Shown: one piece after another, positions 984 through 61,798 of the stretch
Position numbering within the stretch: position 1 is the stretch's first letter
Layout: each line of letters opens with the position of its first letter
Assembly: GCA_025094145.1 (NCBI GenBank)
Contig: JALLLS010000079.1
Location: 99,637 to 163,636, forward strand
Length of the DNA stretch: 64,000 nucleotides
Source of the DNA: Spinellus fusiger
Taxonomy: Eukaryota; Mucoromycota; Mucoromycetes; Mucorales; Phycomycetaceae
Reading direction: 5' to 3'
Translations under genes and position numbers: made by a program
The notes under the pieces: model-generated
What the model saw: the letters and a program-made list of their open reading frames with translations, nothing else
Told to the model about the DNA's origin: nothing
The model's database searches: none

Positions 984-1185
984 CACACCAGGAGATCTTT
1001 AGGATATAAAAGGAAATAGTCAATACAATTGTTTAAAAATGACTGATTTGAAAAGGAGCAAAAATAAATTATGTATTCATGTTAGATTTTAAAGATTATT
1101 ATGTAGATTTACCTGTAAATATCTGAATCCCATAGGAAACCACTTTCGATGTGGCGATATATAATATGAATACAAATATCTATTC

Positions 1186-1657
1186 TTATGTGACTGTATA
1201 GATATCCTTTGATGCATTCACATCTCTGTTCCAAACAATTCCACAACCTTGGCAAGCGTGGATACTGTTGAAATTTACTAATACCTCGGTGAGGTTATTT
1301 GTGTTATGTGGCAGATCTTGAGAATAAAAATAAGAATAACTGTTAAAAGAGCTTTTCATATTAGGTGAGAGATCAATCATGTCTACTCTCGATGTAAAGA
1401 ACTCATCGACATCAACCAGAAGAAGATCTCCATCTTTTTGTCTCTTTTTTCAATGATTGATATAACACTCTCGTCAAACCAACACGATGACCTTTAAACT
1501 TGGTAGCATCTTTTACCTTTACTCCTGTGCCATAAGCAACAACTGGCAGTTTGGTAGGATCATACTCCAATCTTTCTAGGTGCCAATATCCCTTTTCAAT
1601 AATAAAATAATAGTAAAAATAATTAGTTCGAGATGTATTAATGTACTCTATGTACAT
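1186..1657 (-). pseudogene. Fanzor (eukaryotic TnpB-like RNA-guided nuclease) C-terminal remnant, copy A
   Basis: Minus-strand pieces encode the typical C-terminal part of a Fanzor protein: VVAYGTGVKVKDATKFKGHR, then a VDVDEFFTS block (the RuvC Glu region), and finally ACQGCGIVWNRDVNASKD, which is half of the zinc ribbon plus the last RuvC aspartate in WNRD. The frame is broken: an extra A in an A-run near 1450 shifts the frame compared with copy B, where the same place reads in frame into DEFLTSK. The stretch between DEF and the zinc ribbon holds an intron in copy B and is also out of frame here. The active enzyme would be an OMEGA-type nuclease guided by an RNA from the element end. This copy cannot make it. 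The N-terminal half was not recognised. Confidence 0.8.
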
Positions 1658-2794
1658 GTCATATTACCCTTGCATTGGCACCTTCTTGTCTTTGTAACGG
1701 ATTCACTGGGTTTATTAAAATAAAAGAATATACAATAGAAACTGACTAACATGTAAGACACAATAAACATACACAAACACTCACCAGATCACAACTGTTA
1801 GTTTATATGCCAGACAAAGACAAACAAAATAGAGTAGAAGATATGAAGAACAACAGACAGTGTAATTAGCAAGTATTAATATTCGAACAGAAAAGAACAA
1901 AACGAAACTTCACAAGTCATTTACTTAATCAGAACCACCAAAGTAATGCAGACTACAACAACATTCTAGAAAGAAAAGAATTCCTTAAAGAACAGTTGCC
2001 TAGTTACCCGTTGTGCTCAAATTGTGTGTTGTGTTCCTGTTCATGTACCCTCTTTGATTTCCTTAGACCAGCCTTTGTACTAATACTCTATTTCTTTGTC
2101 CCTTCTAGAGACCCAAATATCTATACATTTATCTCTCTAGTAGTCTTGTTGATAACTACAGTGCCCTTTACTACAGAATAAAGGATATATTTTTACAAGG
2201 TTACATAGTATAGATCTTGAGGCTACTTTTATATCTCTCTCTTTAAGCTATAAGGATAAAAGCTATACGATAATAACATCTCAGTAAATTCAGAGATGGA
2301 TTCCTTCCTCTTGTCCTATGTATGTTTCAAGGGAAGAGAGAAACCCTTTTTACAATAAAATCACTTTATTGAATTGTATGGCCTTGAAATACAGAACCGA
2401 GATTATACACACTGTAGGATAGGAGAGTTATCCTTCCCAGTCTACCTGAATGTTCTATGAAGACCATATCTATTGCTTGAGAGCAGCAAAATATTCAAAT
2501 TCATAGTCAAAGAAGAGATGCCAAACTAATATAAAAAGTGTAATTGTCTACATCTTTAATAAAATAGACTTTAATCCAAACAGCTTTCTAGAGTATAAAC
2601 AAGATAGGCTCTAAGGAATTGAGTAGCTGACTGTTTCTTGTTCTCGACTTGTTTTCTTTCTGTATTCCCACATTGGTGCCATTATTATTACAACTACCAG
2701 TTTTCCTTCTGTCACTTATCCTTCTCTTTTCTGTCAATCTCCGTATGAGTGACCAGCCTTACGAGGTCCTGTGTGTCTCTTGTCTCATAGCAAC

Positions 2795-2885
2795 AGAATA
2801 CTTTTGGGATATAAAAAGAAATACATGAACAATGAAATTATGTTATTTGTTTTGTTGGCTAATGTGTTTGAAAAGAACCTTTTCA
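2795..2885 (-). repeat. Internal copy of a Fanzor-element 3-prime end
   Basis: Read on the minus strand, this stretch (CACATTAGCCAACAAAAC, then a CTTTTTATATCCCAAAAGT-like tail) matches the last about 90 bases of element C at 30800-30886, including the TTTATATCCCAAA block just before the terminus. The terminal GGTGTG itself has decayed. It suggests that element A is built from two elements end to end. Confidence 0.55.
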
Positions 2886-3780
2886 TTGTATGTCTGTCTT
2901 GGCATTGACTATGGACTGTGTAATTAAACACTATAGAGTTAGATAAAAGGAAGAAGCAAACCTGACATTGCAACTCCATCACTGCATTTATTGTTTAACA
3001 TGTGCTATCCATAAGCCCACAGTATAACAATCAAGTACTCGTCAAGATGAGCATAACTAAGCAAGATAGTGTGATATTATTAACAAAGAGAAACAATAGG
3101 AGGTGATAGACACTACCAAAGGCTGTTCTTGAGGTAAAAAGGTAAGCAGTGTCTTTATCTGGGCTTGAGCTCATTGTAATCCACAAGACACTCATTGTAT
3201 TGTTAATAAATAAAGACTCCTTTCAAGTCAGTACCAAGTGGTCTTCTATACTGTCTAGGGTCTCTAGGGTATACTCCTGAGCATAGTTATTTATCTCCCA
3301 AGGATAAATCACAAGGCTTTTAGGGTGTGGATTCTATTGCTACGAGGGAATGCACTTTGGCAGTAGCTATAGTCATACTATAGTATTATCTATACTATTA
3401 CAATAAACAATTTTATTTATCAACAATATATTCTATTGATAATACAATGTGATATTGAGGTATCCACAAAAAGAAACAAATATTTAGATACTTGCAACCC
3501 TTTTGATTTTAAACACAGAGCCATAAAAGGGAAAAATTTGGGACCCTCGTAAAAGGAAAGAGGTATCACCGCTTAAAAGCCAGAAAAATCTCCTGGTGTG
3601 TAGCCATGTCCGTGCTACCATGGACAAATGAATTGGACTGCATGAATGACTGCTTTTCATTGACAATCAGCCACACCTACCCATTTGGTGTGGACAGACA
3701 CTCGAGTTGCTTAATTTTGTTTATATCTATTTCTGTTTCTTAAATTCCCTCTTCTTCTTCTCAATACAGTCCAATACACC

Positions 3781-4904
3781 ATGGACAAGTGGAAAGGGTC
3801 TTTTGCACAAACACAACTGGAGAAGTTTGGTTGGTCAAAGTAGGTGTGTAGAACCATCCCTTCATTGTATAACTCACTATAGTGTATTCTACGGTATGAC
3901 GATTACAGTGGTGATGGTCTCGGAAAAAACAAAGATGGAAAAGTCAAACACATTGCTGTTTCTGTTAAGAATGATAAAAAGGGTGTGGGTGTTGCTGAAA
4001 ACCAATGGGAGTTTGCTTGGTGGGATCATCTTTACAACAAGAGTACCAATGCTCTATCCGTAGAAAAGGACAAAACAGAAGGACAGGTAACCACCACCAC
4101 TCTGCCTCACGACTATCAACACATACATACACATAGACAGTGGGTATTGATTATAAACTTATTCTAGGTGGTGATTGCCTCCAAGGCAAAATCAGAAGTG
4201 CGACGCTCCAAAACAGGCATTATCAGTACACAGCGTCCTACGGGAAAACGCATTTCAAAGAAAGAAACTGTAGCCGTTGTGGAGGAAACAGAAGTGACAG
4301 TGACAGCTGGATCCATGTCTTCCATGGCAGAACAAAGAAACATGATGGATACAGTAAAAGATCTACAAATGGGACTCACTAAGAAGGCCACGGGGGGTCT
4401 TCTTTACAGTGCTTTTGTGAAGAGTTCTACGGGTTCCTTGCCTAGGTAACTGGGTTAGAAGACAGTGCCACTTGAGAAGACAGTGAATGCTCACTTATGG
4501 TCTCTATTAGCTCAGACCCCTCGACACCCACACCTCTGAGTCCTCAGACAAAACCTCTTTCTTTGGAAGAGGAGGAATTGAAAGACTTTTCGATAAAAAT
4601 CAGTGATGCTGAATTATTTGCTGCATGTGAAGGGAGAACGGCAAGAAAGGGTGGACGTGGTTTAGTGGATCAGAAAGGCAAATACTCCCGAGTGATGCAA
4701 GATTACCTACGACCTGATGATAGTGATGATGAGACACCATTAAAGAAGAGAAAGAGGAAAGACAATGGCCAAAATGATAGAGAAAAAAAAGAGAAAAAGA
4801 CCAAGAAAGAAAAGAAAGAAAAGAAAGAAAAGAAAGAGAAAAAGGCCAAGAAAGAGAAGAAAGAAAAGAAAGAGAAAAAGACCAAGAAAGAGAAAACACA
4901 ATAG
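3781..4904 (+). CDS. G-patch domain protein, GPATCH4-like, with Lys/Glu-rich tail
   Basis: Four exons (3781-3839, 3909-4086, 4168-4445, 4511-4904) with introns of 69, 81 and 65 nt keep one frame for 302 residues. Residues about 9-45 form a G-patch: QLEKFGW, then GDGLGKNKDGK, followed by the WWDHLYNK stretch seen in GPATCH4-type proteins. A conserved downstream block, ISDAELFAACEGRTARKG near residue 210, also matches that group. The last 45 residues are almost entirely Lys and Glu in KEKK repeats, as in nucleolar proteins. G-patch proteins usually activate DEAH RNA helicases, so a role in ribosome biogenesis or RNA processing is likely but inferred. The ATG at 3781 gives a G-patch near the N terminus; an upstream exon cannot be excluded because TTCTCAATACAG at 3760-3769 resembles an acceptor. 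Confidence 0.82.
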
Positions 4905-6617
4905 TGCATACAATTAGAACACTTGCAAGGTTATAAAAAGACATTCAATCTATTCAATCTATTCTATTTATTATAAAAGATCCAATGGACAGGTAACTTG
5001 ATCATTTATACAACAAACCCATACTCCATAACTTGTAAACATTCAAACTAAGTATTCATCATCCACCTAATAAATCATCGGTATACTTAAAAACATAGAG
5101 TCTATAGACTTGGTACATTCAATCAATAGATAAATAAAATAATGTTTTATAACAAAATAAATTGTTTTATTATCAAAGCAACTGCTATTCATTATGGATC
5201 ACTATAAACATATATCCTATACTAGCATAAGGCACATACTATAATAAGAAGCAAGATCAACAATAGATCCAAGTTTATTCCATAAAATACTAATACAATA
5301 TTTAAATATAAATATTCCTTTTGGTATTCTAGTTAAATCAGTGTGTAAATACTGCTTATTAATGTGCTATTATTTCCCATAATACTCACTTCATCGGATA
5401 CTAGGGATACTCAATAAGACTCCTGAAACAGTAAACAAATGGACTATGAATCGATACAATGTTATCATTGTGCATTTATATATTATAGAAAAGGCTCAAT
5501 ACTAACATGAACCCGCTACTATAGAACTCTCCCTAGAGAGCAGAAGAGAGAAAGAAGAGGAAGGAAGTCTTGGAGTGAATAAAAGAGATACAGCACAATC
5601 TCCCTCTTAAGAAGACCTGTGCTTATTAATATCATAGAACAGAAATATCAGACTACAATGTTCTTAGTGAGTGTTACTTCATTCCAACAAATCCTATAGG
5701 AAGCACTGAATTTATAATGCATTTCCATCTATAATTCTTTGGATTAACATTCAAGGCAGTATGCACTATAGAATCAATGGTTGTATTTCAATCATCACTA
5801 TTTTGATTCTTTTTTATCAGATGATAAGGTAGTTTTGTAATTGCTTTTAGAAAATAGTTTAATAGAGGCAACATGGAGACCATTTTTATTGTGTGTTTAA
5901 TCCCACAATAGCCTATTCTACTGGTGTGATAGATTAAAGAATAAAATAAACAACTCTATTAGCATTAAAAATAAAATAATAAAAAAGCATGGTAGCCTAA
6001 CTAATTCCTCTGTACCAAAGGCCTGTGTTGGGTTGATTTGTATATCCAAGATATAAACAAAGGTTAGTTAATAGAATAGCATAATAGGTGTCCTTAACTT
6101 TCAGACCGTGCTATGGAACAGTGGGCTATTGACTTATTGCTCAATCGTGGTTTATTAGTTTGCTGGTTCTACTTTAGTGACATTGCCCAAACTACTGACT
6201 GCTGCTAATAAACAGACATCTTCTGGGACATCCTGTGAATAATACTGAACTTGAGGAATACACTTTACTACTGGAATTGGCCTGTGATCTTAAGATTGTC
6301 TTGATCAAACGTCTATTTAATAAACACCTTTAGTTAATTCTACACTAAGAGAGGGGTCATTTATTTTCATTATCTATTGCATTTGCCGTAAATATAAGAC
6401 AAGTTTTATTTTAATGATGGGACAAGTTTTTTTTAAAGGAAAGTGTGATAAACAATTGTGAAAATAGTGTATAAATGCATACTATCTGGCTGTAAAAATA
6501 TTAAGGCATTTGGTAGAGTGTCAAAAATAGTACAAGAATTAAAGGCTGAAGATTACAGTATGCCATGAACATACAAGCCATATAGGGTAGGGTATAACAA
6601 TATAATAAAGACATCCT
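4905..6617. other. AT-rich intergenic region
   Basis: About 1.7 kb with no credible coding frame in either direction, separating the convergent G-patch and permease genes. It contains one copy of a 487-bp dispersed repeat (5987-6473), described separately. Confidence 0.5.
5987..6473 (+). repeat. 487-bp dispersed repeat, copy 1 (Tc1-family end fragment)
   Basis: Nearly identical to 33066-33554 in the same orientation. The last about 180 bases also match, in reverse, 29053-29215, the 3-prime flank of the Tc1-like element at 29-32 kb. The terminus GTGAAAATAGTGTATA matches the terminal inverted repeat of that element. No reading frame is present. It is best seen as a terminal fragment or MITE derived from that Tc1 family. 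Confidence 0.65.
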
Positions 6618-14106: not shown

Positions 14107-14961
14107 CAGTCCCATGTAATAAATGACTAGACAAAAGATAAACTTTTATTTTTTATTCTTCAAAAATAAAATAGAGGTCTTTTTCTTTTCTTTTATAACT
14201 TATTCAAAAAATGACTTTAGTCAATGAAAATCAGCCAACTCTTAGACAAGAACATAAAGATAGTCCTATCAAAAGAAGAGAGCATGCTATGTTTATTAGA
14301 GGTCAAATCATAGGACAATGGAAAAGACATGTTACTTATCAAGAGATTTCTGACGATCTTGACATCCCAAAGAGCACAGTGGGCAGGATCGTTCTATTGT
14401 ATAAAAACAAAGGCATAACTCGGCCACAAAATGCATACAGGAAGACCTGAAAATGTTTCATCTACTTCAAAACTGGCTATTGTTTTTTTCTATTCACAGA
14501 AACCCTATGCAAACAATCGCATATCATTTGAAAAATATGAATGATGCAGGCGTGGATATTTGCCGTAGCACATTTTTAAAATACATGAATGAGCTCGAGT
14601 TTTCTTCATGTTCACCATCAAGAAAACCTTGCATGACATATATTCACAAGCATAACCAATACAAAACAGCTTGAATGATATTTGCATAGTGAATGGGAGA
14701 AGATCCCAAATGAATTTCTGGGAAATTTAGTGGATAGTATGCCAAGGAGGTGCTCTGCTGTGATGAAGAATAAAGGCTTTTCTACAAAGCAATGAACAAT
14801 ATATTTATAATAAAAATGTAGACAATCATCTAAAGAACAACCATTCCAAATCTTGTGCTATTCCATAAACCTTTTATTATGAACATCTTAGACTGATAGA
14901 TATGCCTTTAATTTTCAAAAAAAAATTGATTTTTTGTTTAGTCACTTATTACTTGGGACTG
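14107..14961 (+). mobile_element. Tc1/mariner deletion derivative, copy 1
   Basis: Terminal inverted repeats start CAGTCCCATGTAATAAATGA on the left and end TCACTTATTACTTGGGACTG on the right, flanked by TA on both sides (14105-14106, 14962-14963), the standard Tc1/mariner target duplication. The 855-bp interior keeps the N-terminal DNA-binding part and a C-terminal tail of a Tc1 transposase but lacks the catalytic core. A nearly identical copy lies at 37331-38153. Confidence 0.85.
14211..14795 (+). pseudogene. Tc1 transposase remnant lacking the DDE core, copy 1
   Basis: The first frame (14211-14450) encodes a helix-turn-helix of Tc1 type: RGQIIGQWKRHVTYQEISDD, then LDIPKSTVGRIV. A second frame from 14453 continues the N-terminal domain. 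The sequence then jumps to a typical C-terminal tail, SEWEKIPNEFLGNLVDSMPR and RRCSAVMKNKGFSTKQ, ending at 14793-14795. All three acidic catalytic residues are missing, so the copy can only move with transposase supplied from elsewhere. Confidence 0.8.
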
Positions 14962-15554
14962 TACATGAGTAAATTGAGTCTACTAAACACCCCATCTCAA
15001 ATACAACTATTAAACATTAGCCATCAGTGTATTTGCCTATCACTATTCTTATTAAAAGAAAAGATAGAAACCATAGGTTGTATTTGGGTTATCAATTATA
15101 CAAAGTAGAGCATTTGAGTAATACATTCAATACACTAGTGCATAGGGGAGAGAAGGAGTTCAGTACATATATTTGTTTTTATTTTCTATAAGTAGCAACA
15201 ACATGAGACTCTATTGTGACCTGCAGTAGATTAAAGGGCTATTCCTTATTATTTATGATACGTCAAGTGTGTTATTTTTTTAATGAGTTTCATAAATGTG
15301 AATGTAAGAATGTATCTTTTTCTTTTCTTTCACTGTCTTGTATTTTCTATTTTAAGAACTGTACGAATTATTATATAAACAAAAGTAAGATCCTGTCATA
15401 GATCTTATCATTTATTTGGCTTTCTCCCAATGTGTTATGTGTTATGTGTTATCTATAGAAGGACAGAGCTAATACTACAGGGCTTGTATACCTGTAGAAA
15501 GTAACCCTATTTATTTATTTCACTGGGTAATTCCTATTCTCCTTTTCAAACTAA
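14962..15554. other. Intergenic
   Basis: Spacer between the Tc1 derivative and the 3-prime end of the alkyltransferase gene. AT-rich; the short frames at 14902-15108 and 15216-15401 look random. Nothing recognised. Confidence 0.45.
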
Positions 15555-18510: not shown

Positions 18511-18548
<38 letters not shown>

Positions 18549-21329: not shown

Positions 21330-22428
21330 ACTATAGACTCGATGCTAATGAACTTTGGCTGTGCATTCTTCTCGCGTGTCTTCTGTGTCTGCAAGTGTGA
21401 CTTGTTTATAGCATGGCTTAGAGGAGACTATCCGCCCTACACACCAGGAGATTTTTCTGGCCTTTAATCAGTGACACACGCATCCATTTGCGTCCAAAGA
21501 TTTCTTGCCTTTTATGGAACTGTATTTAAAATCAAAAGGTCTGAGGATATCCAAATAATTGTTTCCTTTTGTGGATACCTCAATATCAAATTGTATTATC
21601 AGTAAAATATATTAAAGCCATAGAGTTCCAGAAAGTGATTTTATTGTAAAAAGGGTTTCTCTCTTCCCTTGAAACATACATAGGACAAGAGGAAGGAATC
21701 CATCTCTGAATTTACTGAGATGTTATTATCGTATAGCTTTTATCCTTATAGCTTAAAGAGAGATATATAAAAGTAGCCTCAAGATCTATACTATGTAACC
21801 TTGTAAAAATATATCCTTTATTCTGTAGTAAAGGGCACTGTAGTTATCAACAAGACTACTAGAGAGATAAATGTATAGATATTTGGGTCTCTAGAAGGGA
21901 CAAAGAAATAGAGTATTAGTACAAAGGCTGGTCTAAGGAAATCAAAGAGGGTACATGAACAGGAACACAACACACAATTTGAGCACAACGGGTAACTAGG
22001 CAACTGTTCTTTAAGGAATTCTTTTCTTTCTAGAATGTTGTTGTAGTCTGCATTACTTTGGTAGTTCTGATTAAGTAAATGACTTGTGAAGTTTCGTTTT
22101 GTTCTTTTCTGTTCGAATATTAATACTTGCTAATTACACTGTCTGTTGTTCTTCATATCTTCTACTCTATTTTGTTTGTCTTTGTCTGGCATATAAACCA
22201 ACAGTTGTGATCTGGTGAGTGTTTGTGTATGTTTATTGTGTCTTACATGTTAGTCAGTTTCTATTGTATATTCTTTTATTTTAATAAACCCAGTGAATCC
22301 GTTACAAAGGCAAGAAGGTGCCAATGCAAGGGTAATATGACATACACATAGAGTACATTAATACATCTCGAACTAATTATTTTTACTATTATTTTATTAT
22401 TGAAAAGGGATATTGGCACCTAAAAAGA

Positions 22429-22830
22429 TTGGAGTATGATCCTACCAAACTGCTAGTCGTTGCCTATGGCACAGGAATAAAGGTAAAAGATGCAGCCAAG
22501 TTTAAAGGTCATCGTGTTGGTTTGACAAGAATATTATATCAATCACTGAAGAAGAGACAAAAGAGTGGAGATCTTCTTGTGGTTGATGTTGATGAGTTCC
22601 TTACATCAAAGGTAAATGTGATTGACCTCTCACTCAATATAAAATGCTCTTTTAACAGTTACTCTGTTTTGTTTTCTTTTTTTGTTCTCAAGATCTGCCA
22701 CACTTATAACACAAATAACCTCACTGAGGTATTAGTGAATTTCAACAATATCCGCGCTTGCCAAAGTTGTGGAATTGTTTAGAACAGAGATGTGAATACA
22801 TCAAAGAATATCTATACAATTGCAGAATAG
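22429..22830 (+). pseudogene. Fanzor nuclease C-terminal remnant, copy B
   Basis: The frame gives VVAYGTGIKVKDAAKFKGHR, then LLVVDVDEFLTSK with the RuvC glutamate. A GT-AG intron (22613 to about 22693) follows, after which reading resumes with ICHTYNTNNLTEVLVNF, RACQSCGIV, a stop codon (TAG in place of the Trp codon), and NRDVNTSKNIYTIAE to the stop at 22828. Copy A keeps that Trp. The first half of the zinc ribbon has lost one cysteine (CHTY instead of CxxC). The N-terminal half of the protein is absent. The gene is dead by nonsense mutation but the RuvC motif order and the intron remain readable. Confidence 0.8.
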
Positions 22831-23074
22831 TGTTTAAAGGGTCGCCACGGACCAGTTCCATTCTGTCGAGAAGAATGGATATTTGTATTCATATTATATA
22901 TCGCCACATCGAAGGTGGTTTCCTATGGGATTCAGATATTTACAGGTAAATCTACATAATAATCTTTAAAATCTAACATAAATACATAATTTATTTTTGC
23001 TCCTTTTCAAATCAGTCATTTTTAAACAATTGTATTGACTATTTCCTTTTATATCCCAAAGATCTCCTGGTGTG
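22831..23074 (+). ncRNA. Candidate guide-RNA (omega RNA) scaffold region of element B
   Basis: The 244 bases between the Fanzor stop and the element end hold no frame, yet match element A (984-1185) and both arms of the palindromic element at 61298-61798. In TnpB and Fanzor systems the RNA scaffold lies at this place and its guide comes from DNA just outside the end. Conserved blocks include CAGATATTTACAGGTAAATC and TTTTATATCCCAAAGATCTC next to the terminus. Transcription or function is not shown by the sequence. Confidence 0.3.
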
Positions 23075-29502: not shown

Positions 29503-30886
29503 CACACCCAAAGATTTTTCTGGCCTTTAAGAGGTGATATTTCCTTCCTTCTACGTAAAAGAAAAACCTTACCTTTTATGAAAAAATGATTAAAATCAAA
29601 GGTTTGCAAGTATCCAAATAATCGTTTCTTTTTGTGGATACCTCAATATCAAATTGTATTATCAATAGAATATAGTGTTGATGAATAGAATTGTTGATGA
29701 ATAGAATTGTTTATTATAATAATATAGCTAATAATATACTATTACTATAGCTACTACTGTTCTAAGTGTATTCCTTCATAGCAATAGAATATACACCCTA
29801 AAAGCCTTATGCTTTATTATAGGGAGATAGATAACTATGCTCAGGAGTAGACCCTAGACAGCATTGACCTTCTAGAAGACCATCTGAAACTAACTTGAAA
29901 GTCTTTACTTGTCTAATAACAATACAGTGCGTATCTTGTGGAATACAATGAACTTAAACCCAGATGAAGACACTAATTACCTTTTTATCACTAGAATAGT
30001 CCTTGGTAGTGTCTATCACCTATTGTTTCGCTTTGTTAATAATATCACATTACCTTGCTTATTTATGCTCATATTGACAAGTACTTGGGCGTTAAGTTCC
30101 ATGAACCAGTGAGAGGTATTGGAATAAGAAGAATGTTGAAGAAATAAGAGTTCAGGGTGTTCCTTATTGATGAGTTCAAAACATCCAGCTTTTGTCCTGC
30201 CTGTGAGAATGGTGATTTTGAGAAATTCAAGAAAGTGCAAAACTCAAGACCCTTCAGAAGAGAGAAGAACCCCACAGTGACATGTCATAGTCTTTAAAGG
30301 TAAAAAGCTTATAAATATATATGAAAGTCAAAGAAAAGACCAATAAGTCTATTATTATTTTATTTAGGTGCAAAACCCAACAATGTTTGAAGACCATGAC
30401 CAAATCTGCTGGATCTTCTGATGAGATTATTTCTTAATGCCTTTGTTCATCGAGACATGGCAGCAACATTGAACTTTTGTCATGTTCATTTTTTGGACTA
30501 CGAGAAGAAGGCAAACAACCCAAACGCTTTTGTCGATCCAAGACAGTACAGTCTGTTGGTACCAAAAGAAAGGAGTCCCTATTAGCTAGTAGTAGCCGAC
30601 CTACCAAAACATCAGAAAAAAAAATACGGTGTAGTTATCACTGAATTAAAACAAGATACACGTAAGTCTCTTTTGAACCATACTACATTTCTATACTATA
30701 TTTCCCCAAAGATATACCAATACTTTATGAAGATAGTGTAGCTATTGCTAGGATAGGCAGACAGAGTTTGAAGTAGTTCATTTAGACAGCGAAAATACCT
30801 TTTTTAAACACATTAGCCAATCATAAGAATATTGCGATTTTATTGTCCGTGTATTTACTTTTATATCCCAAAAATCTTTAGGTGTG
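29503..30886 (+). mobile_element. Fanzor-bearing element C, inserted in a Tc1 transposase
   Basis: Ends CACACCCAAAGATTTTTCTG and CCCAAAAATCTTTAGGTGTG are inverted repeats like those of elements A and B. Length 1384 bp. The flanks are CA and TG where A, B and the palindromic copy have TA, consistent with a TA duplication that has since mutated. Removing the element and one dinucleotide restores the transposase frame between NFAS and ILDVMN, which fixes the boundaries closely. Confidence 0.85.
30056..30585 (+). pseudogene. Fanzor nuclease remnant, copy C
   Basis: Reads IDKYLGVKFHEPVRGIGIRR, a stop, then EFRVFLIDEFKTSSFCPACE with the RuvC glutamate and the first CxxC of the zinc ribbon. An intron (about 30300-30369) is followed by RCKTQQC (second zinc pair), a frameshift, and HRDMAATLNFCHVHFLDYEK, in which HRD replaces NRD but the last RuvC aspartate is kept, ending at 30583. 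It belongs to a different Fanzor subfamily from copies A and B (AATLNF instead of VNASKD). The N-terminal region is absent. Inactive through nonsense and frameshift changes. Confidence 0.82.
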
Positions 30887-31923: not shown

Positions 31924-33065
31924 TAGCCAACTTTAATATCAATTACAGTCCGGTATCTCCGCTAAACTGGCATGAGGACATTGACAAGTTCTTTGAGTAC
32001 TCCTCCCCATTATGGCAGCAGAAAAACCTTCAAATCTGGTTTATTAGTGCAGATCACCAACATTCCAGATGTCCAAGTTTAGATATACTCACAGATACTC
32101 AATTGAATATAAATCCGGGCGTTAAGATGATCAGCTGGGTAGGGCTATACCATCTTGCTGCCTTTTACTGCCCTGACATCTGTTGGGAATGGCATATGAC
32201 ATGTTTTTTGTTTGTTTGTAAATAATAGATGATTCCAGGATTTAAGTTTAAGCGTCTGTTCAACTCAGAACAATACATTTTAATGGCATTAATGTACTTT
32301 TTTGGAGTTTATATATTTTTTCTTAGTGATGATCAGGGAAACTGATAGAAGATCTATCTATCCATCCATCTATCTATCTCGAGAATAGTTGATGATAGAA
32401 ACTAGTCTAGGCTTATTATCTTATTCATCAAAATATTTGCTTTCTTCGCTCTTTGGTGAAACTCTCATTGCTTCAGTCTTATGATAAAACCTCAGTAATG
32501 TATTGCTTACAGTAGAGCTTAACTAATTCAACACATGACATATGTCTGCATAGAGTATGTCGTTTACAATGAACTTATGCACAGTGACTGAGCAAGCCAC
32601 ACTGTTTTGGGTCTTATGCACTATAGCATATGTCTTGAATACGCTGGTTATATGAAATAAGGAAAAATATGAAATACAACCATAATGAACAGCGATGACA
32701 ATTATACATGCATACGTATACATCTCTTATCTGAGAAAGTAACCATTATCTGATAAAACAGTCTGGAATCTAAAAGGGTATATTGCTTTGCACGGTTTTC
32801 TTTACTCTACCAGATTGTAAAGAGAAGCCGGAGCTCTTTTGCATAAAAGATATTTCCAGGAATAGTAAAAATAATAATAATACCTCAAACTATTACAAAT
32901 AATACTCACTCACTTACATCAACACCCATTCACTACCAGAAAAACTTCAACCTTCAAACATTGACATATGATATCATTATAAAGAAAATATAAAATTTCA
33001 ACAATCTTGAATATATATTAAAAATTAAATAAATTAAATAAATTAAATAAATTAAATAAATTAAA
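31924..33065. other. AT-rich intergenic region
   Basis: No gene recognised. A CTAT/CCAT tetranucleotide run lies at about 32355-32380 and a TTAAATAAA tandem repeat at about 33020-33063 just before the second 487-bp repeat. Confidence 0.45.
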
Positions 33066-33554
33066 AGCATAGTAGCCTAACTAATTCTTCCGTACCAAAG
33101 GCCTGTGTTGGGTTGATTTGTATATCCAAGATATAAACAAAGGTTAGTTAATAGAATAGCATAATAGGTGTCCTTAACTTTCAGACCGTGCTATGGAACA
33201 GTGGGCTATTGACTTATTGCTCAATCGTGATCTATTAGTTTGCTGGTTCTACTTTAGTGACATTGCCCAAACTACTGACTGCTGCTAATAAACAGACATC
33301 TTCTGGGACATCCTGTGAATAATACTGAACTTGAGGAATACACTTTACTACTGGAATTGGCCTGTGATCTTAAGATTGTCTTGATCAAACGTCTATTTAA
33401 TAAACACCTTTAGTTAATTATACACTAAGAGAGAGGTCATTTATTTTCATTATCTATTGCATTTGCCGTAAATATAAGACAAGTTTTATTTTAATGATGG
33501 GACAAGTTTTTTTTTAAAAGGAAAGTGTGATAAACAATTGTGGAAATAGTGTAT
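33066..33554 (+). repeat. 487-bp dispersed repeat, copy 2
   Basis: Same orientation as and nearly identical to 5987-6473, ending in AATAGTGTATA. It is directly followed by a different Tc1 relic. See copy 1 for the relation to the Tc1 family at 29-32 kb. Confidence 0.65.
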
Positions 33555-37289: not shown

Positions 37290-37330
37290 GGTGCTTTAGA
37301 CTATCAACGTGCAGATGGCAAACCAAGTTT

Positions 37331-38153
37331 TATTTTTTATTCTTCAAAAATAAAATAGAGGTCTTTTTCTTTTCTTTTATAACTTATTCAAAAAATGACT
37401 TTAGTCAATGAAAATCAGCCAACTCTTAGACAAGAACATAAAGATAGTCCTATCAAAAGAAGAGAGCATGCTATGTTTATTAGAGGTCAAATCATAGGAC
37501 AATGGAAAAGACATGTTACTTATCAAGAGATTTCTGACGATCTTGACATCCCAAAGAGCACAGTGGGCAGGATCGTTCTATTGTATAAAAACAAAGGCAT
37601 AACTCGGCCACAAAATGCATACAGGAAGACCTGAAAATGTTTCATCTACTTCAAAACTGGCTATTGTTTTTTTCTATTCACAGAAACCCTATGCAAACAA
37701 TTGCATATCATTTGAAAAATATGAATGATGCAGGCGTGAATATTTGCCGTAGCACATTTTTTAAATACATGAATGAGCTCGAGTTTTCTTCATGTTCACC
37801 ATCAAGAAAACCTTGCATGACATATATTCACAAGCATAACCAATACAAAACAGCTTGAATGATATTTGCGTAGTGAATGGGAGAAGATCCCAAATGAATT
37901 TCTGGGAAATTTAGTGGATAGTATGCCAAGGAAGTGCTCTGCTGTGATGAAGAATAAAGGCTTTGCTACAAAGCAATGAACAATATATTTATAATAAAAA
38001 TGTAGACAATCATCTAAAGAACAACCATTCCAAATCTTGTGCTATTCCATAAACCTTTTATTATGAACATCTTAGACTGATAGATATGCCTTTAATTTTC
38101 AAAAAAAATCAAAATAATCGATTTTTTGTTTATTCACTTATTACTTGGGACTG
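37331..38153 (+). mobile_element. Tc1/mariner deletion derivative, copy 2 (left end lost)
   Basis: Nearly identical to 14146-14961, including the internal deletion. The right end TTATTACTTGGGACTG is intact and followed by TA; the left terminal repeat (about 40 bases) is missing. Confidence 0.82.
37395..37979 (+). pseudogene. Tc1 transposase remnant lacking the DDE core, copy 2
   Basis: Same two N-terminal frames as copy 1, with identical helix-turn-helix residues in the first and two substitutions in the second (VNICRSTFF against VDICRSTFL), followed by the same C-terminal tail to 37979. No catalytic core. Confidence 0.78.
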
Positions 38154-38502
38154 TATACTTAAAAAACAGGAAACTAACACTTAGCAATTTGTAAATAAAA
38201 TAAAATAAAAATAAAAATAAACAGTTACAAAATCAATGGTCTGGGATAAAGTATCTTTGATAAGCTGTAGTGTATTTGAATGCAGTGGATAAACCTTTTA
38301 GAGATAGTATAAGAGTACAACAGCCTGCATTAGTATGTGTTATATTTGGTGGTTATTTCCTTGAAGTTATTCTATTTGTAATAATCATTAGAATATAATA
38401 AAAGAATAATATACAAGTTGAACGAAAATACTCCAAGTTAAATGTCATTTCTTCTTGATTATATATCAAAAAAGAAACTCATCCTTCTCTCTCTTCAAAT
38501 AG

Positions 38503-38752
38503 GTGTTCAAACCAAAAACGTATGAAAGACAAGACATTGAGGCTTTGGAATCGTGATCTAGCTGCTACATTGAACTTTGGACATATTCTAATGTCTCAAA
38601 GGGAAAATGGTACCCGCCCAGAGCACTTTTGTAAATATAACAAAAGAAAGCATGACTCCAAGGATACAACTAGAACCAATAAAAGGTCCAAGCCTTCTGG
38701 TTCATCTCTATTTTTCTCCTCCCCAGTTATCGCTGGAGCCGCGATTGACTAA
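38503..38752 (+). pseudogene. Fanzor C-terminal exon fragment, copy D
   Basis: After an acceptor (CTTCAAATAG) the frame reads CSNQKRMKDKTLRLWNRDLA, then ATLNFGHILMSQREN with GTRPEHFCKYNKRK and a basic tail to the stop at 38750. LWNRDLAATLNF is the last RuvC motif of the same Fanzor subfamily as copy C. No upstream coding region was recognised, and the preceding DNA belongs to the Tc1 derivative. No CACACC termini were seen, so this is an orphan exon. Confidence 0.7.
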
Positions 38753-39944: not shown

Positions 39945-41070
39945 TTTTTTACACTCCGATATGATTGTTGTATGGAGAAATAGTTATTGCTTTTAATAAA
40001 AACACACAGTAGAAACTTAAAAATTGGATGAGCTATATAGAAGGTCAACTGGATAATAAATACAAATCTATTGGGTGGAAACTCTTAACATTTAGTGTTT
40101 CCACCCTTGGTCTCTGTCACAGCCCAACATCTCCGATGTATGCTGGCAATGATGTTGTTAGTAATCTCCTTGGGGATTTTCTTCCATTCTTGGACCAAGA
40201 GAGCCTTCAGATTCTGGAGAGTGCTTGCTGAGGTCACTCTCTTTCGAACTGACTTGTCCAGTTTCTCCCAAAGATGCTCCATTGGGTTCAGATTAGGGCT
40301 TTGAGAGGGCCACCCCTCCACCGTAACAATTCTATCAACACCTTCACCAGAAAAGAGAACCCCACACTATCACCCCACCACCATCACCCAACCTCATCTT
40401 TAGTTTGGCATTCTTTAGGAATATTCCCTCCTTCCTGTGTACCACTCTGTTGCGGTGGTTGTTGCCTATCAACTGGTACTTTGACTCATCAGACCAGATG
40501 GCCACCCTCCAGTCTTCTTCTGTCCTTCTTCTGTCCAGTGGAGGTGGACCTTGACCCAAGCAAGCCTCAACTTCTTGTGCTTGTCGGTGAGATCAGGCTT
40601 TCTGATCATCCTCTAAGACAGGAGGCCAGGTTTCTTTATCATTTTCTGAAATATCATCATGGACACTTGGGTGTCCATTCCCATGTGAAACTTCTTTCAT
40701 GTCTCTTTCATTCAGAATAGACTTGCTCCCAGATATCTTCCCTGCTTTGAAACAGACAGTTTCCCTATATCTCTTCATGATAAGGCATACAGTGGGATTA
40801 CTGACACCAAACATGACTGCAATATTCACTTGTGTTGCATCCAAAGTCAATACAGAGACATGTCTAATATAAGTAGCACCAGTCAATTGCATTAACACTG
40901 ATAAGTAATTAGGATCATATGTGTAGACTCAACTACAGGAAGCATGTACCTGTAACCATGGCAATTCACTAGTATATAAAGAGTTGTATATTCCACCAAA
41001 TAAAAGCAATCTATTCTTGGATAAAGTCGTGTCATCCTCAGTTCCTTTATTCTTCAGTTTGAATAAAACA
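39945..41070 (-). repeat. Inverted duplication, arm 1 (dead Tc1 element)
   Basis: These 1126 bases match 44097-45222 in reverse with almost no differences; both arms have the same length and encode the same broken transposase pieces, with one substitution in one frame. A possible Tc1 end (CAGTGACTTGCGAAAATC) lies just outside this arm at 39918 and is absent from the other arm. Confidence 0.9.
40085..40898 (-). pseudogene. Tc1-like transposase relic in arm 1
   Basis: Pieces in order on the minus strand: a helix-turn-helix region (IAVMFGVSNPTVCLIMKRY), a stop after VLEDDQKA, RVAIWSDESKYQL (first catalytic Asp), GGVIVWGSLFW, then a jump straight to QSPNLNPMEHLWEKLDKSVR (final acidic residue) and the C-terminal tail RRCWAVTETKGGNTKC. 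The segment with the second Asp is deleted, so the enzyme is dead. Confidence 0.85.
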
Positions 41071-44096: not shown

Positions 44097-45222
44097 TGTT
44101 TTATTCAAACTGAAGAATAAAGGAACTGAGGATGACACGACTTATCCAAGAATAGATTGCTTTTATTTGGTGGAATATACAACTCTTTATATACTAGTGA
44201 ATTGCCATGGTTACAGGTACATGCTTCCTGTAGTTGAGTCTACACATATGATCCTAATTACTTATCAGTGTTAATGCAATTGACTGGTGCTACTTATATT
44301 AGACATGTCTCTGTATTGACTTTGGATGCAACACAAGTGAATATTGCAGTCATGTTTGGTGTCAGTAATCCCACTGTATGCCTTATCATGAAGAGATATA
44401 GGGAAACTGTCTGTTTCAAAGCAGGGAAGATATCTGGGAGCAAGTCTATTCTGAATGAAAGAGACATGAAAGAAGTTTCACATGGGAATGGACACCCAAG
44501 TGTCCATGATGATATTTCAGAAAATGATAAAGAAACCTGGCCTCCTGTCTTAGAGGATGATCAGAAAGCCTGATCTCACCGACAAGCACAAGAAGTTGAG
44601 GCTTGCTTGGGTCAAGGTCCACCTCCACTGGACAGAAGAAGGACAGAAGAAGACTGGAGGGTGGCCATCTGGTCTGATGAGTCAAAGTACCAGTTGATAG
44701 GCAACAACCACCGCAACAGAGTGGTACACAGGAAGGAGGGAATATTCCTAAAGAATGCCAAACTAAAGATGAGGTTGGGTGATGGTGGTGGGGTGATAGT
44801 GTGGGGTTCTCTTTTCTGGTGAAGGTGTTGATAGAATTGTTACGGTGGAGGGGTGGCCCTCTCAAAGCCCTAATCTGAACCCAATGGAGCATCTTTGGGA
44901 GAAACTGGACAAGTCAGTTCGAAAGAGAGTGACCTCAGCAAGCACTCTCCAGAATCTGAAGGCTCTCTTGGTCCAAGAATGGAAGAAAATCCCCAAGGAG
45001 ATTACTAACAACATCATTGCCAGCATACATCGGAGATGTTGGGCTGTGACAGAGACCAAGGGTGGAAACACTAAATGTTAAGAGTTTCCACCCAATAGAT
45101 TTGTATTTATTATCCAGTTGACCTTCTATATAGTTCATCCAATTTTTAAGTTTCTACTGTGTGTTTTTATTAAAAGCAATAACTATTTCTCCATACAACA
45201 ATCATATCGGAGTGTAAAAAAA
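44097..45222 (+). repeat. Inverted duplication, arm 2 (dead Tc1 element)
   Basis: Reverse copy of 39945-41070. The inner border (TGTTTTATTCAAACTGAAG) matches the inner border of arm 1 exactly; outside the arms the sequences are unrelated. The two arms are 3026 bp apart. Confidence 0.9.
44268..45081 (+). pseudogene. Tc1-like transposase relic in arm 2
   Basis: Identical broken frames to arm 1: same stop after VLEDDQKA, same first catalytic Asp (WSDES), same deletion of the second Asp region, same SPNLNPMEHLW end. Confidence 0.85.
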
Positions 45223-46560: not shown

Positions 46561-46639
46561 AGAGTTCTTTTGGTTTGTTCAACATTTTTAGATAAATTAA
46601 ATATCAGGGTGGGAAAGAAATAAAGGGAGTATCATTAAC

Positions 46640-54385: not shown

Positions 54386-54591
54386 TATAAAAGAAAGAGA
54401 AAGAAAGGGGATTCCTTCCAAGCCAAGCCCGCAAAATGACCGCCTGATTCCTGTTACTCACACTCCTCCTATAAGGAATCTGATGTGTATGTACCCCACC
54501 ACCATACTCTATACACTACAGCAGCTTTTATTTTATGCAGACACAACACAAGTATTTATTTTGGTGGAGAAAGAGGGAAATGGGTTTTGGT

Positions 54592-55589: not shown

Positions 55590-55699
55590 AGCTACTTGTA
55601 TGAAAAGGAGGGTTGTAGGGCTCGCCAGGCACACACAAGAAAATATCCCTGGTGCGGGCCACCCAGTCCTATAAAGCAGTCACTGCTCTTCTTTCTCTT

Positions 55700-56354: not shown

Positions 56355-56780
56355 GACATACATCATTGGCCTTAGAGTGTGGATATACACACCTATATAT
56401 ATATATATACACCACCTAACAAAAATATCCTTTTGCTATCTTATCTATACTGTCCTCAATAAGCCCTTTTCTTTCTTTCCAAGAGAGTGTAAATAATAGC
56501 GTAGATGTACTATCACAAACTAATCGACTACATTCAGGTGAGGTACTCTTCTCTTCCTACCCCCTTCTCTTAGAGTGAATAAAAGACACAAGGGTACACT
56601 CTTACCCAGAAAAGAATCCTTCTGCAATAAACATACTTCTTTCTCGTTCTTTATGCAAGTCACACTATGCAAGCCATAAGTGATCAAATAGAAAAAAAGA
56701 CATTTCAAACTAAGCATCTCTCTCTTTCTTAGTTCAGTCATAGAGCAAAAAGAAGAAAAGAAGAAAAAGGAAAAGAGAAT
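56355..56780. other. Intergenic
   Basis: About 430 bp between two genes on the same strand. TA repeats at about 56394-56408; nothing else recognised. Confidence 0.5.
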
Positions 56781-59589
56781 ATGGAGTCACCTCATACAAG
56801 CTATTTGTTCAGAGGCATAGTGTATAAATTAGAGACACTGCTTGATAAAACAACCAATAAAAAGGTAAAATAAAAATAAAAAGACCAAGAAGAGTGTGAT
56901 TTGTATAGACTCACTCGCAAGTGCAGTTGAAAGCACAGTTGGTGCAGCATGGAGCAGTAGAAGTAGGCACTTACGAACCCACTCATATCATCACCAACAA
57001 CCCCCTGTGCAACTCTTCTAATAGTGAAACTGTCTCTGTTACAGTAAGGACAAGAGAGAAACAGTGTCTAGTGATGTATGCGTCAATACTAACCATCACT
57101 AGCCTCTGTGGGTAGAAGCCTCCATCAAGGATGAATTTCTCCAAGAGTAAGCTCCCTTCTATGAGTAAGACAGTGGCTCAATGAATTTTTTCTTTTTTTT
57201 CTTTTTGTACAGGGAAAAGTTCTTTTCTGTTGATTCTAGTAAAATAGTCTCGGGAAAAGTGATTTGTATTTCCCAAGTAAGGCCAAAGAAGAGTCCATAG
57301 ACATCTCAATGGATCAATGGATCAATAGAAGACTGACTATGGTGTGTCTGTGGGGTGGGTAGATATCTGGCTATGAGAGGATGGAGATCATTGATGGTAT
57401 TCTCGGACTAGGTGGACAGTACAGAGATCGATGGACATTGGATACTACACATTTATTATGTGATGAACCCAAAGGAGTAAGGATGGGGTGTACTATAGGA
57501 ACATCTACACACAATAACCTCTTCTTTTTCTTCTTTGTACTTTATTCACCAGTCAGACTATGAGGCAGCCATGGAAAAAGGAATCAAGGTAGTACTCAGA
57601 AGATGGATAACAGACTGTATTCGATTAAAGCGCTATATACAAGAAGTAGGTTTCTTATGGACAAAACACACATTTCACTCACTCATTGGGGGAGAAAAGG
57701 CTTACTACCAATTCCCAGATCCTCCTTTACTAAAAGAACAGCTTGCAGCATTAAGTAAAGAAGGAGGAGAACAGGTAGAAAACAATATTCACTCTGGTAT
57801 TCTTGCCTACCGGAAAACACTTCCTAGTTCTGTCTCTTTTTCATGGCCATTTTTAGAAGGCTATACTATTCATTTGGATAGCGAACTTGCTTTGTCCAGC
57901 AATGAACGTGAAGATCTGATTCAACACCTTGTGGATGCAGGTGCCAATTACAGCGACAAATACACCAAGTCTGTGGATATTATTATTCTGCAGTGGCGCA
58001 ATACTATACTGTATCGAAGAGCAGTGAATGATAATGTAGTAGTGGGCAGTCTCTGGTGGATGATGAATACTCTGGAACGCCAAAGACTAGATCATCCCTC
58101 CAATGTGCTACTGTATTATCCTATACCAAAAAATGGCATTCCTGCATTTGAGGGCACAATCATTACTATCTCTGGATATTATGGAGTAGCCCGTAATTAT
58201 TTGCAGCGTTTGTTGACAATTTTAGGAGCAGAATTCACACCTCACATGGAGAAAAGTAAGACAACTCATCTGGTCACTGCTACGTAAGTGGACTATAAAG
58301 AGAGAGAAATAAAACTAACACAACGACAGCAATGACAGCAAAAAGTACATTCATGGCAAAGAGTGGGATATCCATGTTGTGAACCATCTTTGGGTGGAAG
58401 AATGCTTCAGAGAATGGAAGTTGAAGTCGGTGGCGAATGAACAGTTTTTATACTTTCCTGGAGAACGTATTCTGAATTCATTAGTAGGCCAAACCTCTTT
58501 ATGCAAGGACACCATCGAACTCTGGAGAAGATTGCCTACGCCTGAAGGGTCTATGCCAAACCAAACTTCTAGAAAGTCAAAACAACCCAAATTGCTGCAT
58601 AAAGATTCATTGGACAATATCTCTTTACAGGGGTATTCCCATAAGAGTGGAAGCCAATCCACCAGTGTAAATTCTAACAGCAATAAAACAGCAACAACGC
58701 CTATGGAGGTGGATTATGAATCAGCAGTAAATGGGGATCTTAATGAACCTGCTTCTCAACTGTCTACATCTGAAAAGAAGCCTAGGCAAAAGCAGAAAAA
58801 AGACAAACAGAAGATTATCTCTGATCCTTCCTCTCAGACGCTTCCAAGTACAAGATCATTTGATACTTATGATATAAACAATGCTCCAAATAGCCAAGGT
58901 CAAGGAAGTAAAACAAAACGGCCAAAATATAAGAATGGCTTCCGAATTGCTATCACAGGGGGCCCCATTGACAATGAAGATGCAGCGGTAAGTGAGGCTT
59001 GGAAGAAAGAACACCTGTACGATAAGGAGGCTGGATGTCTCACACAACTCTTTTCACTTTAAAAGAAACTACGTGCTATGGGATCCTCTACGACAGAGAA
59101 TATTCTACAGGCAACCCATCTAATTGTTGCAAAGGAGATGGTGAAAACTACAAAGCTTCTTTGTGCTATTAATCTGGGTCTTTTCGTTGTCTCTTTAAGC
59201 TGGCTTACTGACTCTCTCAAGGTAGAGAGCTGGAAGCCAGAGACTGACTATCCAGTCATAGACTCAGAAGCAGAATCCAAATTCAAATTTAATCTTTATA
59301 AAAGCATTGAATTGGCAAGACAGCGTAAAGCATCCAACGAAAGGCCGTGGCTGTATGGCTATACATTTTATATACCAGGCTCTCGAAAGGAAACTCTCAA
59401 GCCAGTAGTAGAGACAGCAGGAGGAAAACTAGCATCAAGAAAACCACTTCCCCAAGATAATATTCTGGTACTTTCAGAAAATCAAGATCCAACTCTTATT
59501 ACCCAAGGGCTGGATATCTATTTGCCTGATGTTGTAACTACTGGTGCACTTCGTCAACAGTTAGATTTATCCGAGTTTTCTTGGCAGTA

Positions 59590-59590
<1 letters not shown>
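56781..59590 (+). CDS. Six-BRCT DNA-damage response protein (Rtt107/Brc1-like)
   Basis: Eight exons, 56781-56864, 56909-57043, 57103-57146, 57213-57276, 57363-57476, 57553-58283, 58330-58987 and 59066-59590, splice in frame to 784 residues. BRCT-like units are seen at about 5-90 (TYEPTHIITNN, LPLWVEASIK), 97-180 (GLGGQYRDRWTLDTTHLLCD, VLRRWITDCI), 240-330 (HLVDAGANYSDKYTKSVDII, GSLWWMMNTL), 345-430 (LLTILGAEFTPHMEKSKTTH, NHLWVEECF), 597-670 (ATHLIVAKEM, VVSLSWLTDSL) and 704-784 (TAGGKLASRKPLPQDNILVL). Four N-terminal and two C-terminal BRCTs around a charged Ser/Lys-rich linker is the layout of yeast Rtt107 and fission-yeast Brc1, which act at stalled forks by binding phosphorylated histone H2A. 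Function is inferred from this architecture. The stop codon abuts an AAT microsatellite. Confidence 0.85.
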
Positions 59591-59630
<40 letters not shown>

Positions 59631-59631
59631 G
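59589..59631. repeat. AAT microsatellite at the BRCT gene stop codon
   Basis: Thirteen or so AAT units begin at the last base of the BRCT gene stop codon and run through the start of its 3-prime UTR. Confidence 0.85.
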
Positions 59632-61297
59632 AATAAATGGCTTGCAATAGAATACAGAATGTGTACAAGTTGGATCTTGTGGTTTTTTGTAGATATACTC
59701 ATGCCAAACTATCTACTGTGTGGCCGACATAGATTGTTTTAAAAGGATTATTTTCTTTCTTTCTCAGCCTTGTAAAGAGACCCATTCTTTTTCATCCTGA
59801 ATCTCTAGAAAGCAGTATTGGAAAATGCTTATAAGATACTATTATAGAACAAAGATGTTATTATTAACAAAGTGATATAGTATTGTACTAATGTTATTTG
59901 TATCTCTTTGATTTCAATATAGTCTATCAAATAATTCATCTACAGTTAAAGAGATAAACTAATATATTTACTTTTATATTCAACGTTTTAGGCTGAAATG
60001 AGGCAGTCGCAATAAATAAGATAATAAAGATTATTATTATTATTTGGAGAACACTGCAACTGAGCTGCTGGTAGTGTGTACATAGTGTATTCTTGGATTT
60101 GTAGTTATTGTTCATTCTGTTATAGTGTATCTTGTAGCAGATATAGTATCTTACATTACCATTTATCAATAACAACAACACTAATAATAAACAAGTCTAT
60201 ATTATCTCTAACTCGGGTACAGAGACTCTCTCCACTGACTAAAGAAAAGAAAAGAAATTATTCCCTGTCCACTACCCATCGTACACTACCAACAACAATA
60301 ACATACTCTCTTGTAGTAATGGCTACACTCATCCAAAATACAGAACAAGTCTTTGAATACTCTTGTGTTTATGTCTCATTTATTCTTGTGATCGTCTCAT
60401 TTTAGGCTAAAATACTTTACATCAAGTATACTGTCTATTCTGCAGTTTATGAATAAATTGCAAAAGAGGGGGGAGGTTTACTGTTAGCTATAGTAAATAT
60501 GTTATTTTCTATTTAATTCTTATTTAACTATCTGATAACATGATGGTGTGATAGCGTGATGGTATGATAAAAATATATCCATATTAAATATATGATGGAT
60601 CATACAAGCAATGTATTTCCTTGTCATCATTCCTTCATAAAGATTATACTTTTGTCTATTTTTCTCTCTAGAAACCCGTTTTATTTTGAAATAGTATTAC
60701 TACAATAATATACTAGTAGTAACCTAAAACTGCACCTAATAAACTTAAAGTACTTGGCAGAATATCCTTAATAAACATAAAGGCTAAATAAGATGGATAC
60801 ACTCCAATACTTTATACGTAATCCAGTAGAATCTACTAGCCAACAAGTTCTCTTTTTGTATTATTATTATTTTTTGGCTATTCTCTTAATAAGGAACCAC
60901 TGAATCCAAATTCGGAATACTTATCCTATTATTCTTCATGCTGTATACGAACTTTATAAGCAAGACAGGCGATTCGTTCTGTAGACAAGTAGAAAACTCA
61001 TGCTACAAAGGCAACACTTTCTTTATATGTAAATATTAAAACGTGGTAGTACTTTATGCTGAACAACCATGTAGTTTATTTTGTACATTTGTGAACACTA
61101 GACCAGCTGTTAACAAATCAATCGATCCATTAAGAAATAAGGATAGAACATCGACAGAAATTCATTATAAACTAATGTAAATGAATCCTACCATGAATCA
61201 ATTGTCTTTTTCTATATTTATAAAATATATTTTTTGTCATTGATAATTTAAGTGTAGACTCTCCTATGACTTGTAGGAGAACTATTCAAAGAATATA
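59632..61297. other. AT-rich intergenic region
   Basis: No gene recognised. Frames at 59936-60181 and 60076-60405 overlap on opposite strands and look random. Confidence 0.5.
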
Positions 61298-61798
61298 CAC
61301 ACCAGAAGATCTTTAGGACATAAAAGGAAATAGTCGAAACACAATTGTTTAAGAAATGACATCGATTTGAAAAGGAACAAAAATAAATTGAGATGTATTC
61401 ATGTTAGTTTTTTAAACAGATAAAGATTATTATGTAGATTTACCTGTAAATATCTGAATCCCAAAGGAAACCACTTTCGATGGGGCGATATATAATATAA
61501 TATGAATACAAATATCTATTCTTCTATACAGAATGGAGCTGGTCGGTGGTGACCATTTAATCCCTCTTCTGCAATTGTATAGATATTTGTATTCATATTA
61601 TATTATATATCGCCCCATCGAAAGTGGTTTCCTTTGGGATTCAGATATTTACAGGTAAATCTACATAATAATCTTTATCTGTAAAAAACTAACATGAATA
61701 CATCTCAATTTATTTTTGTTCCTTTTCAAATCGATGTCATTTCTTAAACAATTGTGTTTCGACTATTTCCTTTTATGTCCTAAAGATCTTCTGGTGTG
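61298..61798. mobile_element. Palindromic MITE made of two facing Fanzor-element 3-prime ends
   Basis: Flanked by TA (61296-61297 and 61799-61800) with CACACC/GGTGTG termini. Bases 61298 to about 61535 are repeated in reverse from about 61566 to 61798 with only a few differences. Each arm matches the 3-prime noncoding end of Fanzor elements A and B (CAGATATTTACAGGTAAATC, TTTCGATGGGGCGATATATA, the TCCTAAAGATCT block). About 30 unique bases form the centre. No coding sequence. Confidence 0.88.

Follow-up and report, generated by a model that had tools for sequence, protein, structure and literature searches.

Analysis of a 64,000-nt stretch of Spinellus fusiger DNA (contig JALLLS010000079.1, positions 99,637 to 163,636; hereafter the window) and of the 38.08-Mb genome reveals a transposon family in which Fanzor genes lie between common terminal inverted repeats (TIRs) adjoining TA. 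With moderate confidence, we interpret it as a family resembling Spu-1 of Spizellomyces punctatus (PMC3627910, PMC10432273) that has multiplied in S. fusiger largely as truncated or protein-less copies, and whose function would be RNA-guided. This interpretation is carried by the common TIRs next to TA, by a full-length member with an open exon spanning RuvC to the zinc motifs, by two Fanzor lineages occupying the same ends, and by a conserved right end (RE) of approximately 200 nt.

Fanzor remnants in the window

The initial annotation had placed a Fanzor family at five loci of the window. Coding remains were found at four of them (A to D), none complete, while the fifth, a palindrome, is protein-less. 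The features are listed below, with LE denoting the left end.

984 to 3600, minus strand: element A, RE at 984, LE at 3600, TA at each side
984 to 1187, minus strand: right end of A, putative guide-RNA scaffold region, with guide readout expected below base 984
1204 to 1594, minus strand: VNASK-type Fanzor C-terminal coding remnant of A (VDVDEFFTS, CQGCG, WNRDVNASK)
21440 to 23074, plus strand: element B, a shorter copy, LE at 21440, RE at 23074, TA at each side
22405 to 22809, plus strand: VNASK-type Fanzor C-terminal remnant of B, NRDVNTSK preceded by a stop
29503 to 30886, plus strand: element C, deletion derivative of a Fanzor1 (PpFz1-like) element, diverged ends, TA not seen
30079 to 30519, plus strand: Fanzor1 C-terminal remnant of C (IDEFKTSSFCPAC), with three TAA stops inside 30079 to 30321
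38429 to 38752, plus strand: locus D, Fanzor1 last-exon fragment (WNRDLAATLNF), adjoining a Tc1 remnant
61298 to 61798, no strand: palindrome of two right ends head to head (RE-RE), TA at each side, no Fanzor gene

The Fanzor identity proposed from these motifs held up. The motifs are present, the C/D-type peptide (a hand-made join of C and D) matches the Fanzor1 of Parasitella parasitica (3e-32) and SpuFz1 of Spizellomyces (1e-16), and the A/B-type peptide (a composite) matches Pfam PF07282 (1.9e-12) and a PDB chain of the TnpB-like protein L79 (6e-5). At E 1e-3, tblastn located VNASK-type coding in A (1594-1204) and B (22405-22809), and coding of the AATLNF type in C (30079-30519) and D (38429-38656). 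Each of these remains matches C-terminal query parts only, none at full length, C and D thus matching Fanzor1 by its C-terminal parts, and the RuvC-I parts of the same queries had no match anywhere in the window. The window copies are relics.

Elements A and B are 92% identical across 1,468 nt, and the right end of A is 96% identical to that of B over 215 nt and 87% identical to the palindrome arms over 220-226 nt; a genome search with element A returned at least 107 matching pieces among the best 40 of 1787 candidates. The left part of A resembles a Fanzor1 (C-type) element and its right part is of the VNASK type. The left 0.6 kb of element C corresponds to the first 588 nt of the full element described below and its right 0.8 kb to the last 0.8 kb. 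Locus D, also proposed as a member, retains the WNRDLAATLNF fragment at about 38429-38752 and amounts to a last-exon fragment beside a Tc1 remnant, with no CACACC-type terminus within the 601 surrounding bases that were read.

Common termini, their flanks and their genome-wide abundance

Elements A, B and the palindrome terminate in CACACCAGGAGATYTTT adjoining TA, as predicted for the whole family; the prediction fails for C, whose termini have diverged (CACACCCAAAGATTTTT at 29503 and AAATCTTTAGGTGTG at 30886, with flanks ca and tg), and for D, where no termini were seen. The 17-mer CACACCAGGAGATCTTT, with up to 3 mismatches allowed, matches the window six times (984, 3600, 21440, 23074, 61298 and 61798) against a chance expectation of 0.16, a number that 0/100 shuffles attained, and TA adjoins 6/6 of these matches. 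Genome-wide, TACACACCAGGAGATCTTT with up to 3 mismatches gave 761 + 749 matches compared with 3 + 2 for the reversed control, and longer end-specific patterns at the same tolerance gave 350 + 345 right ends and 333 + 336 left ends, with 0 matches for the reversed-pattern controls. The genome therefore holds at least 695 right ends and at least 669 left ends, C-type right ends being mostly uncounted because the right-end search pattern was that of the VNASK type. The concern that genome copies might end elsewhere was not borne out, as they have the same ends.

Among ends found without requiring TA in loci L009-L081 and the window (L001-L008 being excluded as duplicates), TA precedes 65/66 RE and 31/34 LE. 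TIRs with a TA duplication, as in Spu-1, thus occur genome-wide, while in the window element C lacks the TA and locus D showed no termini; the 9-bp target duplication of MuDR-type Mucorales Fanzor elements was not seen, the flanks of the copies listed having only TA in common. The base before TA was C at 72/100 LE and 48/100 RE among the first 100 exact matches listed per type of end (Fisher p 8e-4), and at 29/31 LE and 26/65 RE among the fetched loci (p 2e-7), the two samples partly overlapping; C stands at this place in 19% of NTA in the window. By analogy with the CATA of SpuFz1 (PMC10432273), we interpret the left-end excess as a CTA motif resembling a target-adjacent motif (TAM). Conservation of the right end is 0.83-0.95 per 20-nt block across the first 200 nt and then falls to 0.76 and about 0.6 (62 ends); the drop sits near the end of the gene tail, the right end being better conserved than the gene tail adjoining it. 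Compact LE-RE elements of 262-289 bp, both TA included, are also present in the genome. At one locus (L077, C90:297650-298800), two identical 285-bp LE-RE ghosts lie in opposite orientation, 526 nt apart, with differing flanks.

A full-length Fanzor1 element and a second Fanzor lineage

Full-length and intact copies had been suggested as the target of a search by the ends; a full-length copy was identified, and its gene is broken. This 3.9-kb copy (C110:204203-208104; hereafter the C110 copy) has both ends with TA outside each, and encloses an open Fanzor1 frame of 479 aa together with a last-exon frame that encodes WNRDMAATLNF. The 479-aa exon matches PpFz1 (6.4e-128), SpuFz1 (1.3e-44) and GtFz1 (2.6e-7), thus showing homology to characterised Fanzor1 proteins over the RuvC region, and the motifs IDPGRRD, IDEFKTS, CPSC and WNRD follow the Fanzor1 arrangement D...[TS][TS]...C4 zinc finger...RD. 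The suggestion that the C110 gene is nearly intact was rejected, its N-terminal half showing both a frame change and a stop. A genome search with Fanzor1 returned at least 150 matches (the best 150 of 216 candidates); 62 of the 150 listed span the RuvC-I aspartate at query position 66, while most of the other 88 cover just the approximately 40 final query residues. The 62 fall into a group at 60% identity or above and a group at 35-49% that includes several long open frames; from this second Fanzor1 subfamily, a 641-aa frame (L075 1911-3833; C2:334800-338800) is unbroken from its N-terminal part to the zinc region.

The WNRDVNASK proteins represent another, divergent Fanzor lineage, which may belong to Fanzor1 or to Fanzor2 and occupies the ends used by the Fanzor1 elements; only 42 aa of it align with the Fanzor1 exon. 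A partial gene model (P0192) with GVDLGRKH, VDVDEF, CQSCG and WNRD displays RuvC-I, RuvC-II, the TNB zinc finger and RuvC-III, and a further locus (L081) combines the same RuvC-I (GVDLGRKHIF) with a terminal CACACC right end. Searching with the RuvC-I part of this lineage gave 48 matches (54/54 candidates scored), 18 of them spanning the RuvC-I aspartate at query position 66; C-terminal matches number at least 269, with up to two per gene (best 150 of 975 candidates), and the genome count of PF07282 is likewise a lower bound (best 150 of 457 candidates). A length-limited homolog search of 15 candidates found two homologs of the VNASK query, both from S. fusiger. That the two subfamilies share similar ends and hence one type of transposon, an early proposal, is supported by the 79% identity of A and C over 595 nt counted from the left end and by the 85% identity of A and the full-length Fanzor1 element across 579 nt.

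Palindromes of two right ends

The arms of the window palindrome show 100% complementarity over 119 nt and 98% over a further 110 nt, with a 59-nt loop between them. At least five full palindromic copies, including this one, were found among the best 40 of 560 candidates, with TA at both sides in 5/5 and differing flanks. They are not a main class of the family, an idea that was rejected on finding 25 LE-RE, 2 LE-LE and 1 RE-RE among 28 adjacent outward-facing exact pairs (100 exact RE and 86/100 exact LE matches, on contigs up to C111). L076 shows a larger inverted duplication of more complex structure, whose arms match at 99.9% over 1,112 nt.

The loop region is common to the five palindromes and is flanked by a short inverted repeat, ATATCTAT / ATAGATAT, that was seen by eye in ordinary copies too, with a mismatch in some; a fold-back origin is therefore favoured. 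A stronger claim, which we rate somewhat short of even, is that the palindromes arose repeatedly and independently by fold-back at this repeat near the gene tail, with no single spreading founder. In support of it, and despite the common loop region, the two arms of a copy are 100% identical in three palindromes and, gaps disregarded, 93.2% and 92.4% identical in the other two, compared with 84-95% between copies, and one arm of the copy on C156 is closer to the right end of A (96.8%) than to its own partner (93.2%). Gene conversion homogenising the arms after a single founding event would, however, look alike.

Guide-directed copies or passive amplification as possible explanations

In the Spu-1-like interpretation that we prefer, copies would be moved in trans by a TA-targeting DDE transposase, transcription of the right end would yield a guide RNA with the adjoining host DNA as its 3' guide, and a remaining Fanzor protein, directed by such right-end guides, would act at a CTA-type motif and cut the corresponding empty site, where repair may copy the element back; the palindrome would be a right-end fold-back derivative. 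We infer the right-end guide RNA solely from position, conservation and homology. Several results weigh against this scenario. Folding gave no support: two stretches of the B right end had z-scores of +1.0 and -0.3, and two right ends of the C type scored +0.6 and +1.8. An alifold consensus of 43 right ends (from 48 non-redundant ones, two of the 43 having C-type bodies) had a covariation term of -0.11, and no Rfam match was found in the window. The left end is conserved too, at 0.72-0.95 per block across the first 160 nt (36 ends), and a transposase preference could produce the asymmetry of C before TA. The C110 gene is broken by a frame change near element position 1710-1730, as judged against the Parasitella protein P0044, and by a stop ahead of the 479-aa frame in its N-terminal half; no intact Fanzor gene of the CACACC family, and no native DDE transposase bounded by CACACC TIRs, was found among the fetched copies, and the sole first exon seen open throughout, that of L075, has no CACACC end in the fetched stretch.

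These points lend appreciable, though clearly minority, probability to plain amplification in the manner of miniature inverted-repeat transposable elements, whereby a transposase acting in trans would move anything with CACACC ends, no guide RNA would be made, and the Fanzor remains and conserved right end would be passengers or transposase-binding sequence. Such passive amplification would fit Fanzor genes broken in all window copies and in the C110 copy, the LE-RE elements below 300 bp, a left end that is conserved as well, if less evenly, and the negative RNA structure results. It accounts less well for the Fanzor genes of the family, relatives of which have been proven to be RNA-guided nucleases (PMC10432273, PMC11423790), and the LE/RE flank asymmetry is unlike the prediction for a symmetric TA-targeting transposase.

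It is improbable, in our assessment, that the family forms a distributed guide repertoire, in which hundreds of protein-less or decapitated copies would supply flank-derived guides to a few surviving Fanzors acting in trans and the palindromes would act as double-guide units. If true, the repertoire would serve Fanzors belonging to two lineages or to the second Fanzor1 subfamily, and the two guides of an RE-RE palindrome would direct cuts on both sides of the empty site.

Nested Tc1 elements and the search for a transposase

Element positions 663-1328 of the C110 copy contain the remnant of a Tc1-like transposase, lying between TACAGTCCC and GGGACTGTA; pieces of this remnant gave a weak HTH_23 match in Pfam (0.0086) and, for the DDE piece, no match. 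A related element on C154 (L080 508-1599) has an intact-looking 364-aa Tc1 frame (DDE_3 7e-12) and ends like TACAGTCCCACGTAATAAGTGACTG, with no Fanzor seen in its 2.4 kb. The C110 segment is read as a nested insertion because it is homologous to this Tc1 and has the latter's own ends. Comparing 150 typed transposase matches with 136 Fanzor places (merged from 149 typed matches), a Fanzor on the same strand 0.3-4 kb downstream of a Tc1-type transposase was found 14 times, compared with 2, 2 and 1 for the other arrangements and 1.0 expected. Spacings recur among these pairs, at about 2.3 kb (5), 1.43 kb (3) and 1.04 kb (3), the C110 pair being the only one read in sequence. Tc1-Fanzor composites thus seem to have multiplied after nesting, and the simplest reading is that one Tc1 became nested in a copy and the resulting composite then spread.

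The segment was considered as a native Tc1/mariner transposase of the full-length element and rejected, despite the co-location, given its own TACAGTCCC repeats. Four DDE_3 elements beside CACACC ends were inspected as native transposases and likewise rejected as nested insertions, three (L067, L069 and L070) having inverted repeats of another sequence and one (L068) being the same Tc1-like element inside a copy; the DDE_3 genome count is a lower bound (best 150 of 1544 candidates). It is consequently very improbable that the family is a Tc1/mariner group with its own transposase plus Fanzor, like the Mariner-Fanzor elements of Phaeocystis virus and Pythium, since the TA at the ends, the Tc1-like remnant within the full-length element and the excess of same-strand pairs are opposed by the segment's own bounding repeats and by a related Tc1 bearing such repeats with no Fanzor in sight.

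Other Tc1 traces occur in the window. Two Tc1 remnants (14141-14963 and 37325-38155) share 98% identity across 831 alignment columns, and the second of them adjoins fragment D; a perfect 1,080-nt inverted repeat (39945-41024 and 44142-45221), with 3,117 nt between its arms, has similarity to Tc1-like transposases inside. Locus L067 also contains long open frames with CCHC zinc knuckles at 79-1404 and 3578-4801, probably retroelement gag-like proteins as judged by eye.

Other features of the window

A direct repeat of at least 300 nt, 97% identical, is found at 5969-6268 and 33049-33348, and host frames with BRCT domains occupy 57535-59590. Another protein encoded in the window shows 99% identity to an S. 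fusiger MBOAT protein.

Implications

For studying the role of a Fanzor in its transposon, this genome provides numerous natural insertions in which the putative guide-bearing end is retained. Further assets are Fanzor1 frames that stay open over long stretches, a second lineage of Fanzor sharing the ends of the family, and LE-RE ghosts and RE-RE palindromes that can serve as natural controls for one another. The CTA bias of the left end provides a concrete and testable TAM prediction. Should right-end RNAs be expressed, the whole population would be readable by sequencing, and guide-driven homing at empty sites would become addressable.

Comparison with known systems

Spu-1/SpuFz1 and its ghost loci in Spizellomyces punctatus (PMC3627910, PMC10432273) constitute the closest known system. 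Both families have TIRs of about 30-35 nt, a TA target duplication, Fanzor1 as the element gene, numerous copies that lack the protein and retain the right end, and a motif conserved upstream of LE; in neither was a native transposase found (PMC10432273 for Spu-1, the fetched copies for S. fusiger). The S. fusiger family differs in its ends (CACACCAGGAGATYTTT), in an LE-side motif of CTA compared with CATA, and in its approximately 1,360 ends compared with the 42 + 134 loci reported for Spu-1. Unlike Spu-1, it also combines two divergent Fanzor lineages with a single family of termini and includes rare RE-RE palindromes, and its Fanzor gene, judging from the frames, is probably split over at least two exons.

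At the protein level, Rhizopus Fanzor-like proteins (P0001 and others) are the nearest found, with 66% identity over the whole C110 exon, and Parasitella parasitica Fanzor 1 (PDB 9cf0; PMC11423790) is its closest solved relative (E 6.4e-128). The exon shares with PpFz1, whose TAM is reported as ATN (PMC11423790), the order of RuvC-I, RuvC-II and zinc motifs, and lacks an insertion of about 100 residues (chain 989-1089) that, by its position, is probably the FRI insertion. The Mariner-Fanzor1 elements PGv-1, PUl-1 and PUl-4 (PMC3627910) are similar in their TA duplications and in a Fanzor lying between TIRs; they have a native mariner transposase or mariner TIRs, whereas only nested Tc1 was seen in S. 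fusiger. No account of palindromic Fanzor elements or of a Spinellus Fanzor was found in the part of the Fanzor literature covered (main texts), and a search for papers on the S. fusiger genome returned none. Overall, what is new is the scale of the family, the two Fanzor lineages on one terminus family and the rare double-right-end palindromes, the novelty lying in this genome-wide picture and not in a new kind of system.

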